Below, one piece after another: positions 21,364-28,985 of a stretch of 64,000 nt of DNA. This DNA is from Thalassospira sp. (lineage in GTDB: Bacteria; Pseudomonadota; Alphaproteobacteria; Rhodospirillales; Thalassospiraceae). Each line of letters begins with the position of its first letter. The stretch's first letter is position 1. The notes beneath the pieces are model-generated. The model was not told the DNA's origin and did not search any database. It was given only the letters and a program-made list of their open reading frames with translations. The stretch covers positions 186,001-250,000 of the forward strand of contig NZ_JAUYHK010000021.1 of assembly GCF_030690045.1 (NCBI RefSeq). Reading direction: 5' to 3'. A program made the position numbers and the translations under genes.

Positions 21364-21392
21364 AGGGCGTTCCGTAAGGGACGCCCTTTTTG
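21364..21392 (+). terminator. Intrinsic terminator of the sulfite reductase operon
   Basis: AGGGCGTTCC / GGGACGCCCT stem with one G-T pair and a GTAA loop, followed by five T. It ends the DUF2849-CysI-DUF934 transcript and separates it from the next gene. Confidence 0.85.
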
Positions 21393-21577: not shown

Positions 21578-22864
21578 ATGCAGGCAGGCAGCAATTGTGT
21601 TATCGATCAGGGTTTTGCGACCTATGATCGGCAATATCGCGATACAGCGCGCAAATATCGCAAGGCCTTGCGCAGCCTTGCCGGAAGCTTGCGCAAGCTG
21701 AGCACCTTTCGGAAAACCTCATTACTGGCCTCGCAGCAACTTTATATCTATGCCAAATGGCTGGCGCGTTATACTGCCTATTGGCCGGAACTGGATGGGA
21801 TGGTCGCACGTCTTGAAGACAGTTTCGATCATCATGATCAAAGTTATGTCGGACGGCAATCGCCGGACGACGGGTCATGGGGCTGGCATTATCAGGAATT
21901 TCATCACAAATTCGATGCGACGATTGTGCGCTTGCATGAACTGGCCGCCGCACGCCGCGCGCCGCGCTATGCACTGGATTTTCTCGAACCGGTGTCTACG
22001 CCACAGAAAATGCGCGATTATCTGGAACATTTGCGGATTTCCGACATCGCCACCACCGGGCGCAACCAGCGCGATGAATATGGCGGGGTGCTGACCTGTC
22101 TGGCGCAATTGTGTTTCAAGCCGACCTTGCGCGCCTATGCTGAACGTCATGTGCGCGGCATCAAGCTGGATCAGGCCTATGTCGATTGCCTTGCTGATTT
22201 TCTCGATGAATCGCAAAACCCCGAAACAGGATATTGGGGGCCGTGGTATCAGGCCGACGGGCAGATACACCGCTATGACGATCTGAGTTATACCTTTCAT
22301 ATCGTGTCCTATCGCAAGGGCGATGTGAAACGCTGGCCCGAGATTATCCGCACCACCTTTGCCAATCGCACGGCGGAATATCCACTGGGCTGGCTGGCCA
22401 ATGGCGAACAGAACAACCACAATAATTACGACGTCGCCAAGATTTTCCGGTTTGGCTGGCCGCATATGAGTTGTGAACAGCGGCAACAGGCCTCACAGGA
22501 AATTGCCTGTATGCTGGAATGGTGTTTGCGGTTTGCCATGGATGAAGAAGGGCGGTTTGTGTGCGAAGGCGGTTTTTATAATTCCCCGGCGGCCTGTTCT
22601 TATTTCGGGGTGTCGTTCCTTGACGAGGTTGGGTATTTCGATAAGGGCAAACGGTTCTGGACCCAAAGAACTTTTCCCGGTTCGGCAAGGGATGCCATGC
22701 GCATCGGTCATCATTTGGCAGAAATGGATCCGAAGGACCCCGGCGTGATGGCGGCAAAATGGAAATTGGGGCATGGGGCCGGAACCACAGAACCCTGTCC
22801 GCCGCAAACAGTTCTTCGGGTGCGCAATCATCATCAGAATGCGCGCCGGATTATTGCTTTATGA
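21578..22864 (+). CDS. Unrecognised protein with two QW-like motifs, coupled to a MATE exporter
   Basis: I do not recognise the family. From the ATG at 21578 (GGAAG upstream) it has 428 residues; the track's GTG start at 21458 falls on promoter-like AT-rich DNA. The protein is rich in Trp, Tyr, His and Arg, without a signal peptide or membrane helix. Two Q-x4-G-x-W motifs ('QSPDDGSW', about residue 94, and 'QNPETGYW', about residue 213) resemble the QW repeats of terpene cyclase/prenyltransferase-type alpha toroids. Later blocks are 'YPLGWLANGEQNNHNNYDVAKIF' and 'EGGFYNSPAACSYFGVSFLDE'. The stop overlaps the MATE start as ATGA, so both are probably translated together. An enzyme on a small molecule exported by the MATE protein is conceivable. 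Confidence 0.75.
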   Translation: MQAGSNCVIDQGFATYDRQYRDTARKYRKALRSLAGSLRKLSTFRKTSLLASQQLYIYAKWLARYTAYWPELDGMVARLEDSFDHHDQSYVGRQSPDDGSWGWHYQEFHHKFDATIVRLHELAAARRAPRYALDFLEPVSTPQKMRDYLEHLRISDIATTGRNQRDEYGGVLTCLAQLCFKPTLRAYAERHVRGIKLDQAYVDCLADFLDESQNPETGYWGPWYQADGQIHRYDDLSYTFHIVSYRKGDVKRWPEIIRTTFANRTAEYPLGWLANGEQNNHNNYDVAKIFRFGWPHMSCEQRQQASQEIACMLEWCLRFAMDEEGRFVCEGGFYNSPAACSYFGVSFLDEVGYFDKGKRFWTQRTFPGSARDAMRIGHHLAEMDPKDPGVMAAKWKLGHGAGTTEPCPPQTVLRVRNHHQNARRIIAL

Positions 22865-24207
22865 AACCGCGCCATTTTGTCGAAGGACCGGTCTTGCGCC
22901 ATATTTTCGGCATGGCGCATACCAGTATGCTGGCGCTGATTGCGTTGGTCGCGGTGGATGCGCTGGATCTGTTTTTCCTCAGCCTGCTGGGTGATGTTGA
23001 AATTGTGGCCGCCCTTGGTTTTGCCTGGCCGGTGATTTTCTTTACCCTTGCAGTGTCGCTCGGCATTTCCATTGCCATGACGGCCCTGGTCGCCAAGGCC
23101 GAAGGCCACGGAGACCGGACACGCGCGCGTATTTACGCCACCCACATTATAATTGTCGGGCTGGCATTGTCGCTGGTGATGACGGCGGTGTTGTGGTTTG
23201 CCGTGCCGGGGTTGTTGTCCCTGTTCGGGGCGACGGGGCGGGTGCATGAATTGGGGCAATCCTATTTGCGCATTGTCGTGATGTGCCTGCCGATCCTGAT
23301 TCTCAGCATGTCTTCGGGGGCTCTGTTGCGCGCCATTGGTGCAAAACAGCGGGCAATGAATGCCAAGCTGGTCGGGGCGGCGGTCAATGCCATATTGGAC
23401 CCGATTTTTATTTTCGGATTTGACTGGGGGGTGGAAGGGGCGGCGTGGGCGACGGTCATTTCGCGCCTTGCCATCATGGCGGTGGCACTGGACGGGGCAA
23501 CACGGGTCTACCGGATGCTGGGACGGTTTGATGCCCGTCTGTTCTGGCGTGACTGCGGCGAAATTGGCCGTATTACTGTGCCGGTCACAATCTCAAAGGC
23601 AGGGGCCCCGGCAGGCAGTGCCTTTGTCATGGCGACGATGGCGCAGTTTGGCGACCATGCGGTGGCGGCCGTTTCGATCATTGAACGGATTGCCCCCTTT
23701 GTCTTTGTCGGGCTGTATGCCTTGCCCCAAGCCATCGGGCCGATTATCGGGCAAAATTTCGCCGCCGGGGAAATGGCACGGGTGCGCACGGTCTGGCACG
23801 ATGCATTAGGGTTGATTGCGGTTTATATGGCGGTGGTTTGGGCGGGGTTGTTCCTGTTTCAGGACGGGTTTGCCAACCTGTTTCGTGCCACCGATGAAAC
23901 GGCATTCTATCTTGCCGTGTTTTGCAGCTTTATCGCACCCCTGTATCTGTTTCAGGGACTGCAATTCATCTCGCAAACTTTCTTTAACGTCACCGGGCGC
24001 TCCTGGGTGGCGATGCTGCTGGACCTTGCCAAGGAATTGCTGGGCGTTGTGCCGTTTGTCTGGTTGGGTAGCCAGTGGTTCGGCGCGGTCGGTGTTTTGG
24101 CCGGGCAGGGGTCGGGTATGGTGGTTTTTGGCACCTTGTCGGCATTGGTCGGATATGGCCTGATCCGGCGGAAACCGGACCGGAGAACGGTGGTAATGGC
24201 AAAGTGA
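22861..24207 (+). CDS. MATE family efflux transporter
   Basis: Multidrug and toxin extrusion family protein, 448 residues from the ATG at 22861, which overlaps the preceding stop. About twelve membrane helices are visible, in two related six-helix halves. N-lobe features include 'DALDLFFLSLLGDVEIVAALGFAWPVIFF', and the C-lobe has 'AVAAVSIIERIAPFVFVGLYALPQAIGPIIGQNF'. Members export cationic drugs or metabolites using Na+ or H+ gradients. Pairing with the preceding cytoplasmic protein suggests a dedicated substrate. It converges on the XRE regulator gene with a 7 bp gap. Confidence 0.92.
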   Translation: MKPRHFVEGPVLRHIFGMAHTSMLALIALVAVDALDLFFLSLLGDVEIVAALGFAWPVIFFTLAVSLGISIAMTALVAKAEGHGDRTRARIYATHIIIVGLALSLVMTAVLWFAVPGLLSLFGATGRVHELGQSYLRIVVMCLPILILSMSSGALLRAIGAKQRAMNAKLVGAAVNAILDPIFIFGFDWGVEGAAWATVISRLAIMAVALDGATRVYRMLGRFDARLFWRDCGEIGRITVPVTISKAGAPAGSAFVMATMAQFGDHAVAAVSIIERIAPFVFVGLYALPQAIGPIIGQNFAAGEMARVRTVWHDALGLIAVYMAVVWAGLFLFQDGFANLFRATDETAFYLAVFCSFIAPLYLFQGLQFISQTFFNVTGRSWVAMLLDLAKELLGVVPFVWLGSQWFGAVGVLAGQGSGMVVFGTLSALVGYGLIRRKPDRRTVVMAK

Positions 24208-24214
24208 CGGCGTG

Positions 24215-24652
24215 TCATAAGGCCGCCGCCTGCATCAGAAAATGCAAGGATGCCGGGTCGGGTATATTACCCTTCTGGCGTTCTGCCGCCATCATGGCAT
24301 AGGCAAGCACGATGATGCGGGCAACTTGGGTGCTGTCCCATGCCGGCTTGTGAGTTTGCCGGAAAGTTTCCAGTTCCTCAATAATGATGCGCAACAAATC
24401 CGGGTCCAGTGGTGTTGTTTCCGGTATATCCCCTTGGGATTGAATCATGCTGCCCTTGCCGGTCAGCAGCCAGTTTGCGTCGATCCCCCTCTCGACCAGC
24501 ATGGACAGGGATGACGCTTTTGGTTCATTTATGTCCAGCTCATAACGCTCCCACGATTTCCGGGTCAGCCCGGCCATGCTGGCGGCTTCAGTCGCACTTA
24601 ACCCGATATGTTTCCGCGCTTTTCTGATGCGCTCGCTAAAACTGCCCGTCAT
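24215..24652 (-). CDS. XRE-type HTH transcriptional regulator
   Basis: Phage-repressor-like regulator of 145 residues beginning at 24652 (AGGAAG upstream). The HTH is 'FSERIRKARKHIGLSATEAASMAGLTRKSWERYELDINEPKASSLSML', followed by 'ERGIDANWLLTGKGSMI', a phrase common in stand-alone CI-like XRE proteins. The C-terminal half is helical and carries no S24 peptidase domain, so it is not a LexA-type self-cleaving repressor. It may bind the AT-rich upstream region and could control the MATE pair, but neither is shown. Confidence 0.85.
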   Translation of the reverse strand: MTGSFSERIRKARKHIGLSATEAASMAGLTRKSWERYELDINEPKASSLSMLVERGIDANWLLTGKGSMIQSQGDIPETTPLDPDLLRIIIEELETFRQTHKPAWDSTQVARIIVLAYAMMAAERQKGNIPDPASLHFLMQAAAL

Positions 24653-25303
24653 GCGGTTGCTTCCTGTACCGGGCTGGCATATCTGAAATAATACGCCCAT
24701 TGATTGAAAATATATAAAAACAAAGATACTTTTTGGTTTAATGGTTCAAAAATATTCCATTTTTCTGATCCGATCTGGTTTTTATTCTTGAAAATGGGTA
24801 TTAATTGATCCATTATTTAGTGGTTCCTGAAATTGAATATCTTCATATGCCAGCATAACTGGTCGGGGCGTTCCAAAAGCAAGTGACCGGTAAGGTACGG
24901 GTGGTGCCACGGCGGTGCAGGTTCTGTTTTGATCCGCACGCTTTTTCATCAGGGCATCAGTCTTGCCAATGTCTGACATCAAATGTCTTCATCTTTTGTC
25001 ATCCGGTTTTTGCCGCAGGACAAATACGGTTGGTGACATCCGTTGCAAATTACCTTCCCGCTTCCCGAACCGGAAAGGGTCTCCCGTCTGAGTCGGCGAT
25101 GATACTTCGTGTTTCATCCGGAGTCACGGGCAAGAGAAATCGTGGCAAAACAAGGGTTTGGTCTTGGAAAAGACGGTTTGTTTTGCAGGCTGCTTTTCCC
25201 ATTCTGACAAATTCTGACAAGTAAATTTATAAATTTTTTAAAATTTCGAGGCATTCCGGCATCGTTTTGTAGAGCTCATCACGGGATAATTTGGGGGGAC
25301 CAA
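24653..25303. other. 650 bp region without a convincing gene
   Basis: The left part (24690-24840) is very AT-rich and probably holds the XRE promoter and operator. The right part is GC-richer and contains an inverted repeat CAAAACAA...TTGTTTTG (about 25145-25185) with an inner GTCTT/AAGAC stem. It also holds a tandem repeat just before the MCP gene. The ORFs listed here (66 and 113 aa) look random in composition and have no ribosome binding sites. Confidence 0.6.
25201..25220. repeat. Tandem 10 bp direct repeat upstream of MCP
   Basis: Two adjacent perfect copies of ATTCTGACAA, 84 bp before the first MCP start. The spacing of one helical turn would suit cooperative protein binding, but this could be chance. 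Confidence 0.6.
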
Positions 25304-26971
25304 ATGTCATTTCTAAAAAATATCAACATCTCAAAAAAGGTGTTTGGAGGCTTTGGGGGCGTTCTGGCCCTGCTTGTCCTTATTGCGGCAATCGGGGTGA
25401 TTTCACTGGAAAGCGCGAACAGTGACTTTGCCCGTTATCGTCAGATTGCCCTGCAATCGAACCAGGCTGCGCGGGTGCAGGTCAACTTGCTTGAAGCCCG
25501 TGTGGCGATCAGAAGCTATCAGGCGACTGCAACGGATGATTTGAAAAACCGGGCTCTGGAACGGTTACAGCAAACACTCAAGCTGAATGAAGAACTTGTC
25601 GGGATGGCAGATTCTCCAGAGAAACAGCAGGTCATTAATGCTGCGGATACGGATTTGAAAGCCTATGTGGCAGCCTTCAACGAGATGTTGGCTGCTTCTG
25701 GTGACGAGGTTTTGCGGACCCGGATCGTCGATGAAAAACTTAATGTGATCGGACCGCGTGTTACAGCTGATCTGGAGGCATTCAAGCTTGGCATTAAGGC
25801 CGAACAGGATGTTCTTGGTCCGCAAGCCACTGTCGATATCCAGAATGCGGTAACTACGGCAACCATTCTTGGCGTGGTAGCCGTTATTTTGGGGGTTGCT
25901 TCGGCATGGCTGATTGGTACCGGCATTTCGCGTCCGATCCGCTCCATCACCGATGCGATGAATGTTCTGGCCGGGGGCGACAAAACGATCCTGATTCCGG
26001 GGCAGGACCATAAGGACGAGATTGGTGATATGGCCAAGGCCGTTCTGGTGTTCAAGGAAAACATGATCAGGGCGGAACAGCTTGCCACACAGGAAGCTGT
26101 TGCGCAGAAACAGCGTGAAGAACGGGCAAAGCTGATCGAAAAACTGACCAACGATTTCGATGCCGATGTATCGATGGTTTTGAAAACCGTGGCATCTGCC
26201 GCAACCGAAATGCAGGCCACCGCAACCTCGATGACGGCAACCGCCGAAGAAACCAGCCGTCAGTCCACCGTGGTCGCCGCCGCCGCCGAACAGGCATCGA
26301 ACAATGTGCAAACGGTCGCCAGCGCCTCTGAACAACTGACCGCCTCGATTGCCGAAATTTCACAGCAGGTGGCCCAATCGGCACAGGTCGCCAGCAAGGC
26401 GGTGGCCGAGGCGGACCGTACCAATACCCAGGTGCGCGGACTGGCCGAAGCCGCCCAGAAAATTGGCGATGTGGTGGGGCTGATCAGCGATATTGCTTCG
26501 CAGACCAATCTTTTGGCCCTGAATGCGACGATTGAAGCCGCCCGTGCCGGCGAGGCGGGCAAGGGCTTTGCCGTTGTGGCGGCAGAGGTTAAAAACCTTG
26601 CGAATGCGACGTCAAAGGCCACCGATGAAATCACCGCCCAGATTACCGGTATTCAGCAGGAAACCGGCAATGCGGTGGGGGCGATCCAGTCGATCAGTGC
26701 GACGATTGCCGAAATCAACGAGATTGCCGCAACCATCGCCAGCGCGGTCGAGGAACAGGGGGCAGCGACAGAGGAAATTACCCGCAATGTGCAGGAAGCC
26801 TCTTCCGGTACAAGCGAGGTGACGTCGAATATCCACGGGGTGAATGAAGCAGCGTCTTCGACCGGGGCCGCAGCAGAACAGGTTTTGGCCGCATCGGGCG
26901 AATTGTCCGAGCAGGCCGAAGATTTACGCCAGAAAGTCGAAACCTTCCTGTCGGCGGTCAAAGCCGCCTGA
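25304..26971 (+). CDS. Methyl-accepting chemotaxis protein (first of tandem pair)
   Basis: Chemoreceptor of 555 residues. TM1 is at about 13-34 ('VFGGFGGVLALLVLIAAIGVI'). A helical periplasmic ligand domain covers about 35-185, and TM2 is at about 187-208 ('TATILGVVAVILGVASAWLIG'). Then come a HAMP domain ('GTGISRPIRSITDAMNVLAGGD') and the MA signalling hairpin with tip '[35 protein letters not shown]'. There is no C-terminal CheR pentapeptide. It is followed by a strong terminator, then a close paralogue. The ligand is unknown. Confidence 0.95.
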   Translation: MSFLKNINISKKVFGGFGGVLALLVLIAAIGVISLESANSDFARYRQIALQSNQAARVQVNLLEARVAIRSYQATATDDLKNRALERLQQTLKLNEELVGMADSPEKQQVINAADTDLKAYVAAFNEMLAASGDEVLRTRIVDEKLNVIGPRVTADLEAFKLGIKAEQDVLGPQATVDIQNAVTTATILGVVAVILGVASAWLIGTGISRPIRSITDAMNVLAGGDKTILIPGQDHKDEIGDMAKAVLVFKENMIRAEQLATQEAVAQKQREERAKLIEKLTNDFDADVSMVLKTVASAATEMQATATSMTATAEETSRQSTVVAAAAEQASNNVQTVASASEQLTASIAEISQQVAQSAQVASKAVAEADRTNTQVRGLAEAAQKIGDVVGLISDIASQTNLLALNATIEAARAGEAGKGFAVVAAEVKNLANATSKATDEITAQITGIQQETGNAVGAIQSISATIAEINEIAATIASAVEEQGAATEEITRNVQEASSGTSEVTSNIHGVNEAASSTGAAAEQVLAASGELSEQAEDLRQKVETFLSAVKAA

Positions 26972-27233: not shown

Positions 27234-27262
27234 TTTATGCAGGGTTTAACATTTGGCATAAT
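27234..27262 (+). promoter_or_regulatory. Candidate promoter of the second MCP
   Basis: TTTATG and CATAAT are separated by 17 bp, about 59 bp before the ATG at 27321. The -10 matches five of six consensus positions and the -35 only three. The AT-rich context fits a promoter, but flagellar-type control is not excluded. Confidence 0.3.
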
Positions 27263-27320
27263 ATACTTATGTATATACAATACTGAACTTAATGGGTGCT
27301 TTTGGGTATTGGAGAATGGA

Positions 27321-28985
27321 ATGTCATTTTTTAAGAAAATAAAGATATCGCAAAAAATATTTGGCGGATTTGGTGTGGTCCTCCTTTTGCTGGGAATATT
27401 GTCGATTCTCTCGGTTATGTCACTTTACCGGGCAGAAGATAATTTTGTGAAATATCGGGAACTGGCAGAAATATCGAACCAGTCTTCGTATGTACTGTCA
27501 AACCTTCAGGATGCACGTCTTGCCGCTCTTGCGTATCAGAATAATCCCTCAAATGAGGTAAAAGAACTGGCCGTTGGGAGATTGTCCGCAGCATCCGAGA
27601 TGAACAAAAAACTTCTCGAGATGGTTGTTGATCCTCGTACGATTGAAATCGTGCGTCAGACGGAGGGGGACATAGCAAGCTTTTCCGATGCTTTTGGGAA
27701 ACTGATCGCAAGCAATAACCCGTCCGAAAGACAGGCGATTATTGACAATCAGCTTGACGTGGTTGGCCCGCGAATTGCGGAAGAGATCGAAGAAGTCAAG
27801 ATTTCCAGCAAGAAAGAGCAAGATGTACTTGCTATGAAAACTGTTGAAGAAATTGAATTTGAGGTCGTTGTCGCCGAAATAATTGCCGTTGTCGCCGTTG
27901 TTCTTGGCATCGTCATTGCTTGGTTCATTGGGGTTGGAATTTCGCGCCCAATTGTTGCGATCACGTCGACGATGCGCATACTTGCCAATGGCGACAAATC
28001 GGTCGTCATCCCGGGACAGGATCACAGCGATGAGGTCGGCGAAATGGCCAAGGCTGTTCTGGTGTTCAAGGAAAACATGATCAAGGCCGAAGAGCTGGCC
28101 GCGCAAGAGGCCGAAAACCAGAAACGCCGCGAGGAACGTGCAAAGCTGATTGAGAAACTGACCAATGATTTTGATGGTGATGTTTCGATGGTTCTGAAAA
28201 CCGTGGCCTCGGCCGCGACTGAAATGCAGGCAACTGCAACTTCGATGACGGCAACCGCCGAGGAAACCAGCCGTCAGTCGGCAGTTGTCGCCGCCGCTGC
28301 GGAACAGGCATCGACCAATGTTCAGACTGTTGCCAGCGCGTCGGAAGAACTGAGTGCCTCTATTTCTGAAATCAGCCAGCAGGTCAGTCAGTCGGCACAG
28401 GTTGCCAACAAGGCGGTAGCCGAGGCGGATCGTACCAATGCTCAGGTGCGCGGCCTTGCCGAAGCGGCTCAAAAAATTGGCGATGTGGTGGGGCTGATCA
28501 GCGACATTGCCGCCCAGACCAACCTTTTGGCCCTGAATGCAACGATTGAGGCGGCCCGAGCAGGCGAATCAGGCAAGGGATTTGCCGTGGTCGCGGCAGA
28601 GGTCAAAAACCTGGCCAATGCCACGTCAAAGGCCACAGATGAAATTACCGCCCAGATCAGCGCGATCCAGACTGAAACCGATGGGGCAGTTATCGCCATA
28701 GATTCCATCGGCAAAACCATTGCCGAAATCAGCGAAATTGCAGCAACCATCGCCAGTGCGGTAGAGCAGCAAGGGGCCGCAACCGAGGAAATCAACCGCA
28801 ATGTTCAGGAGGCCTCCGCCGGGACAACAGAGGTGACATCGAATATTCACGGGGTGAATGAAGCAGCGTCTTCAACCGGGGCCGCCGCAGAACAGGTTTT
28901 GGCCGCATCGGGCGAATTGTCCGAACAGGCCGAAGATTTACGCCAGAAAGTCGAAACCTTCCTCTCGGCGGTCAAAGCCGCCTGA
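27321..28985 (+). CDS. Methyl-accepting chemotaxis protein (second of tandem pair)
   Basis: Chemoreceptor of 554 residues from the ATG at 27321 (GGAG upstream); the track start 28 codons earlier lies in AT-rich leader. Its layout is identical to the neighbour: TM1 'IFGGFGVVLLLLGILSILSVM', a helical sensor domain, TM2 'VVVAEIIAVVAVVLGIVIAWFIG', HAMP, and signalling tip '[27 protein letters not shown]'. The sensor half is clearly diverged and AT-richer than the first MCP, while the last 145 bp are nearly identical in DNA. Different ligands with the same downstream partners are likely. Confidence 0.95.
   Translation: MSFFKKIKISQKIFGGFGVVLLLLGILSILSVMSLYRAEDNFVKYRELAEISNQSSYVLSNLQDARLAALAYQNNPSNEVKELAVGRLSAASEMNKKLLEMVVDPRTIEIVRQTEGDIASFSDAFGKLIASNNPSERQAIIDNQLDVVGPRIAEEIEEVKISSKKEQDVLAMKTVEEIEFEVVVAEIIAVVAVVLGIVIAWFIGVGISRPIVAITSTMRILANGDKSVVIPGQDHSDEVGEMAKAVLVFKENMIKAEELAAQEAENQKRREERAKLIEKLTNDFDGDVSMVLKTVASAATEMQATATSMTATAEETSRQSAVVAAAAEQASTNVQTVASASEELSASISEISQQVSQSAQVANKAVAEADRTNAQVRGLAEAAQKIGDVVGLISDIAAQTNLLALNATIEAARAGESGKGFAVVAAEVKNLANATSKATDEITAQISAIQTETDGAVIAIDSIGKTIAEISEIAATIASAVEQQGAATEEINRNVQEASAGTTEVTSNIHGVNEAASSTGAAAEQVLAASGELSEQAEDLRQKVETFLSAVKAA

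Follow-up and report, generated by a model that had tools for sequence, protein, structure and literature searches.

The gene torA and the MATE transporter gene that follows it occur together and are missing together, and the MATE-linked toroids of three genera of Alphaproteobacteria make up a single clade; the two genes would thus form a two-gene accessory cassette. The product of torA is predicted to fold as an alpha/alpha toroid. The explanation that fits best is a cytoplasmic toroid enzyme that acts on a small molecule exported by the MATE protein, a reading that we regard as evenly poised between right and wrong. Both genes lie in the window, the 64,000-nucleotide stretch of Thalassospira sp. 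DNA that was analysed; the names TorA (the 428-residue protein) and TorB (a paralogue) were coined in the present analysis, and the coordinates of all features are collected in Table 1.

Table 1 Features of the torA-MATE locus and position of the TorB gene
Feature	Position	Strand	Remarks
Terminator-like hairpin with T-run	21364..21387	+	10-pair stem, TTTTG tail; match to consensus only
torA	21578..22864	+	Open reading frame, 428 aa, ends TGA; predicted alpha/alpha-toroid protein; no signal peptide by inspection
First Q-x4-G-x-W motif	21857..21880	+	Residues 94-101, loop ahead of second inner helix of the model
Second Q-x4-G-x-W motif	22214..22237	+	Residues 213-220, loop ahead of fourth inner helix of the model
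D235-L-S-Y-T-F-H241	22280..22300	+	Entry to fourth inner helix; D235, S237 and H241 invariant in 68/68 rows
N280-H-N-N-Y-D285	22415..22432	+	Entry to fifth inner helix; no variation at H281 or D285 in readable rows
MATE-family efflux transporter	22861..24207	+	448 aa; PF01554, TIGR00797; PDB relatives 6idp, 4lz6
XRE/HTH_19 regulator	24215..24700	-	Convergent on the pair; outside the conserved unit
TorB	L031:8444-9688 (own genome, contig C10)	-	Divergent from an SBP_bac_5 gene

The torA-MATE pair and its surroundings

The open reading frame of torA, with its TGA stop, was confirmed, and its product is as unrecognised as the first-pass annotation had held it to be. Pfam, NCBIfam, PHROGs and PADLOC contained no family that TorA matched, whether it was queried singly or as an alignment, and PDB sequences yielded no meaningful hit either; plasmid and phage sequence searches returned zero matches, and Foldseek turned up no meaningful match among viral structures. 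A toroid-MATE pair of this kind was not described in the literature that was searched. The identification of the second gene as a MATE exporter is secure, with PF01554 matching in two stretches (E 2e-42) and TIGR00797 over the full length (E 2e-51, 174.9 bits against a cut-off of 147.4).

TorA-type and MATE genes are present together in 17 of the 29 Thalassospira-group genomes, while the other 12 have neither and keep cysI-DUF934; in the simplest of these pair-less cases (L105) DUF934 is directly followed by a GNAT gene. In every pair-bearing genome the two genes are adjacent and co-directional, and within the genus the TorA-type homologues share 61-68% identity. The same pair is found in Aestuariispira insulae (56% identity for TorA, 55% for MATE) and in G358, a member of the same family (59% and 56%), where the pair is all that is held in common and no other neighbour is shared. 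This amounts to 19 distinct adjacent pairs in three genera with unrelated surroundings. All MATE-linked rows of a 68-row tree, which represent 19 distinct sequences, group in one clade supported at 100/100. TorA and MATE distances are correlated with r = 0.97, a value reached by none of 5000 permutations and owed partly to common species history. The conservation survey called for when the pair was first noticed thus came out in its favour, and the concern that homologues might never sit beside MATE genes was not borne out.

The two genes could also be neighbours through common ancestry, as a neutral leftover without any functional link, since most torA-bearing genomes belong to one genus with a conserved locus; the perfect co-occurrence and co-loss, and the recurrence of the pair in two further genera among other neighbours, make this very improbable. 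Rather, the pairing, the joint gain and loss and the joint change of the two proteins point to a small molecule that is produced or altered and afterwards pumped out. No further biosynthetic gene lies with the pair, and such a pathway would have to draw its precursors from core metabolism.

The start codon of the MATE gene overlaps the torA stop as ATGA, just as first described. This overlap is peculiar to the species, since relatives separate the two genes by 14-80 bp, and the translational coupling proposed earlier therefore does not hold as a general feature. The overlapping C-terminal tail of TorA (residues 404-428) is predicted by AlphaFold2 to be disordered. The two genes are probably co-transcribed.

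The genes around the pair are less constant. An XRE gene does converge on it here, as had been noted, but stands beside it in this genome only; in five other genomes with the pair its relatives are located elsewhere, in three genomes without the pair they occupy the cysI locus, and it was rejected as a dedicated regulator. Across the genus, the XRE gene and a GNAT acetyltransferase gene seem to be alternatives at the same locus. The upstream cysI (sulfite reductase)-DUF934 genes were likewise rejected as part of the system: they are present in 29 of 29 genomes, are not found by the pair in Aestuariispira and G358, and are separated from torA by the terminator-like hairpin. Tandem chemoreceptor (MCP) genes (25304-26971 and 27237-28985) differ between species in number and place at this locus, to either side of the pair.

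Predicted fold and conserved residues of TorA

AlphaFold2, run with a 33-sequence alignment, modelled TorA as an all-helical ring (mean pLDDT 90.1, pTM 0.87) in which each of six inner helices is preceded by a conserved loop, and gave the same fold for a signal-peptide-bearing homologue (pLDDT 91). When the TorA model was compared with the PDB by Foldseek, the top matches were ent-copalyl diphosphate synthase (E 3.5e-3), Rv3377c, GGTase-III and the beta subunits of FTase and RabGGTase, and GH76 ranked next after these terpene and prenyl toroids. The model of the homologue retrieved RabGGTase beta, GH76 (second), complement C3, squalene-hopene cyclase and transcobalamin. All matches of both models are alpha/alpha toroids, none with E < 0.001 and with TM-scores of about 0.3. 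The models support the assignment of TorA to the alpha/alpha-toroid fold class, the six-hairpin ring of terpenoid cyclases and prenyltransferases, at structural E-values above 0.001, and do not single out one nearest family. A toroid had been anticipated from the sequence, and neither model departs from a ring.

That expectation had come from two Q-x4-G-x-W motifs, both of which are exact (Q94-SPDD-G-S-W101 and Q213-NPET-G-Y-W220) and together constitute the repeated turn that defines QW repeats. Two or more such motifs arose in 17 of 20,000 composition shuffles of TorA. Both sites are near-invariant across the family, and 65 of the 68 homologue rows have at least one exact motif. Invariant throughout the family are R165, D235, S237, H241, D285 and Y342, as is H281 wherever the letter is readable, and many Trp and Tyr residues are conserved. 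These seven residues would line a pocket located at the N-termini of the six inner helices.

The earlier likeness to terpene cyclases and prenyltransferases finds no support when it comes to membership in either family. The DxDD catalytic motif of class II terpene cyclases is missing from TorA, as from each of the 27 MATE-linked rows, and is present in 1 of 68 rows overall, and neither of the class I motifs, DDxxD and NSE, occurs in the MATE-linked clade. TorA was not among the matches when the window's own genome was searched with PF13243 and PF00432, and HHalign comparison of the TorA family with squalene-hopene cyclases from alphaproteobacterial genomes gave a probability of 1.6%. As for the zinc site of protein prenyltransferases (D-x-C and a distant His), the Cys position is Ser in 68 of 68 rows, while counterparts of the other ligands are present as D235 and H281, a correspondence drawn by eye. 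By eye, too, D235-L-S-Y-T-F-H and N-H281-N-N-Y look like the FTase beta segments D-G-C-Y-S-F-W and Y-H-T-C-Y, both of which were checked against the FTase beta sequence; the likeness is a lead only.

The wider toroid family and its MATE-linked clade

The paralogue TorB is present in 29 of 29 genomes of the genus at about 40% identity to TorA, and neither TorB nor the distant homologues are ever found beside this MATE. The TorB gene is accompanied by an SBP_bac_5 binding-protein gene, a hybrid histidine kinase, a pair consisting of a Cache-domain kinase and a LuxR-type regulator, and a Crp-type regulator; the locus is possibly a separate sensing system. A further gene nearby (L031:6956-7693, minus strand) encodes a secreted-looking protein that bears a metallopeptidase-like YAHEAQHV motif and that Pfam did not match at 0.01.

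The toroid family was found in 10 of 385 sampled alphaproteobacterial genomes and, in a phylum sample of 399 genomes, in those of the Thalassospira group only; a scan of 84,980 species with just two peptide patterns gave matches in Alphaproteobacteria only. A majority of the distant homologues (Rhodovibrionaceae, Rhizobium, Vineibacter, Reyranella, Xanthobacteraceae and others) have, by eye, signal-peptide-like starts, which TorA and TorB lack. In several of the sequences (L060, L064, L068, L070, L071, L072, L075 and L076) the N-terminus is a hydrophobic stretch ending in an A-x-A-like site, and in a Rhodovibrionaceae metagenome-assembled genome (L077:8001-8491) the homologue is split over two frames by a frameshift or an assembly error. 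Such N-termini suggest that the distant homologues are periplasmic, unlike TorA, which by the look of its own N-terminus would be cytoplasmic. The family is older than the MATE-linked clade and probably largely periplasmic, and the likeliest history that we can infer is that of an envelope toroid family of which one cytoplasmic lineage took on a new job with an exporter.

A periplasmic past would also suit a carbohydrate-active enzyme, as the periplasm is a site of glycan hydrolases. TorA might then be a six-hairpin enzyme of the GH76 type or similar, with the MATE protein exporting a released or modified sugar or glycoside compound. The rank of GH76 mannanases in both Foldseek searches, at weak fold similarity, the invariant Asp pair D235 and D285, the many conserved aromatic residues and the SBP_bac_5 gene adjoining TorB would all agree with this. 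Nevertheless, no family member has a glycosidase Pfam match above threshold, and the Q-x4-G-x-W turns and the D-x-S-Y-T-F entry look closer to cyclase and prenyltransferase toroids. MATE transporters, moreover, mostly carry cationic or amphipathic drugs rather than sugars. We consider a glycosidase-like role unlikely.

The MATE-linked clade has features of its own. All 27 MATE-linked rows have Tyr or His at position 58, where the 38 others with a letter there all have Glu, and His109, His110 and Asp234 are present in 27 of 27 rows of the clade and rare elsewhere. To judge from the alignment, the loss of Glu58 and the gain of these three residues suggest a new activity that became fixed together with the exporter. 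The disappearance of a Glu that is invariant elsewhere could just as well signal that catalysis was lost. TorA might then be a non-catalytic toroid comparable to transcobalamin or C3d, which would bind and sequester a ligand before passing it on to the MATE protein. Transcobalamin and C3/C3d are indeed among the Foldseek matches of the second model. The family-wide invariance of R165, D235, S237, H241, D285 and Y342, the clade included, is what an active site would show, and non-catalytic binding is accordingly judged improbable.

Proposed function and comparison with known systems

We infer, then, that TorA is most likely an enzyme, which would convert or tailor a small molecule in the cytoplasm, and that the MATE antiporter would expel the product across the inner membrane. 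The MATE-linked clade, with no signal peptide, with Tyr or His for Glu58 and with the three gained residues, may be where the new activity arose. Of the make-or-modify-and-export system first proposed, the link between toroid and exporter stands and the proposed function is now better supported, whereas the regulatory role of the XRE gene and the terpene assignment have fallen away.

The compound could also be foreign. A detoxification or resistance unit, in which TorA would alter or trap the toxic compound within the cytoplasm for MATE to expel, would suit the patchy, accessory distribution of the pair and the kinship of the transporter to multidrug exporters (6idp; the MepA and NorM models). 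It seems a rather unlikely reading, given that TorA matches none of the resistance families and that probably periplasmic homologues and a genus-wide TorB suggest a metabolic origin.

A bolder form of the enzyme reading, tentative and on balance doubtful, is that TorA represents a new family of enzymes built on the fold of terpene cyclases and prenyltransferases, with a chemistry not recorded before. D235, S237, H241, H281 and D285 would replace the DxDD motif or the D-x-C zinc site, the clade would have moved from periplasm to cytoplasm and become locked to a dedicated exporter, and two genes would suffice to make and secrete a metabolite. Whatever its chemistry, TorA brings to the toroid fold an unnamed protein family that the present searches met in Alphaproteobacteria only. 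Some members of this one family are linked to an exporter and others are not, and some keep while others lack the family-invariant Glu; this makes a natural comparison of how a toroid comes by a new substrate and a dedicated way out. Thalassospira is culturable and has both pair-bearing and pair-less species, so that their exported metabolites can be compared directly.

Among known systems, the bacterial class II diterpene cyclases (5bp8; Rv3377c, 6vpt; drimenyl diphosphate synthase, 7xq4) are the best Foldseek matches of TorA and have the toroid and QW-like turns in common with it; TorA differs from them in its single toroid, in the missing DxDD of its clade and in the low similarity (E 3.5e-3, TM about 0.3), and from squalene-hopene cyclases in the absence of sequence similarity. 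Prenyltransferase beta subunits (FTase, GGTase, RabGGTase) are likewise toroids of about 330-430 residues, matched at a Foldseek probability of about 1.0, but the TorA family has Ser at the zinc Cys, lacks an alpha subunit, is bacterial and in part carries signal peptides. GH76 and other six-hairpin glycosidases share the alpha/alpha ring, from which TorA is set apart by its QW-like turns, by weaker structural matches and by the lack of a sequence match. The MATE exporters SolL, MbnM, WgkD and GntT, whose NCBIfam models all match the present transporter far below their cut-offs, also stand beside probable metabolite enzymes. Their clusters include known biosynthetic families, whereas here the exporter is partnered by one single unnamed toroid.
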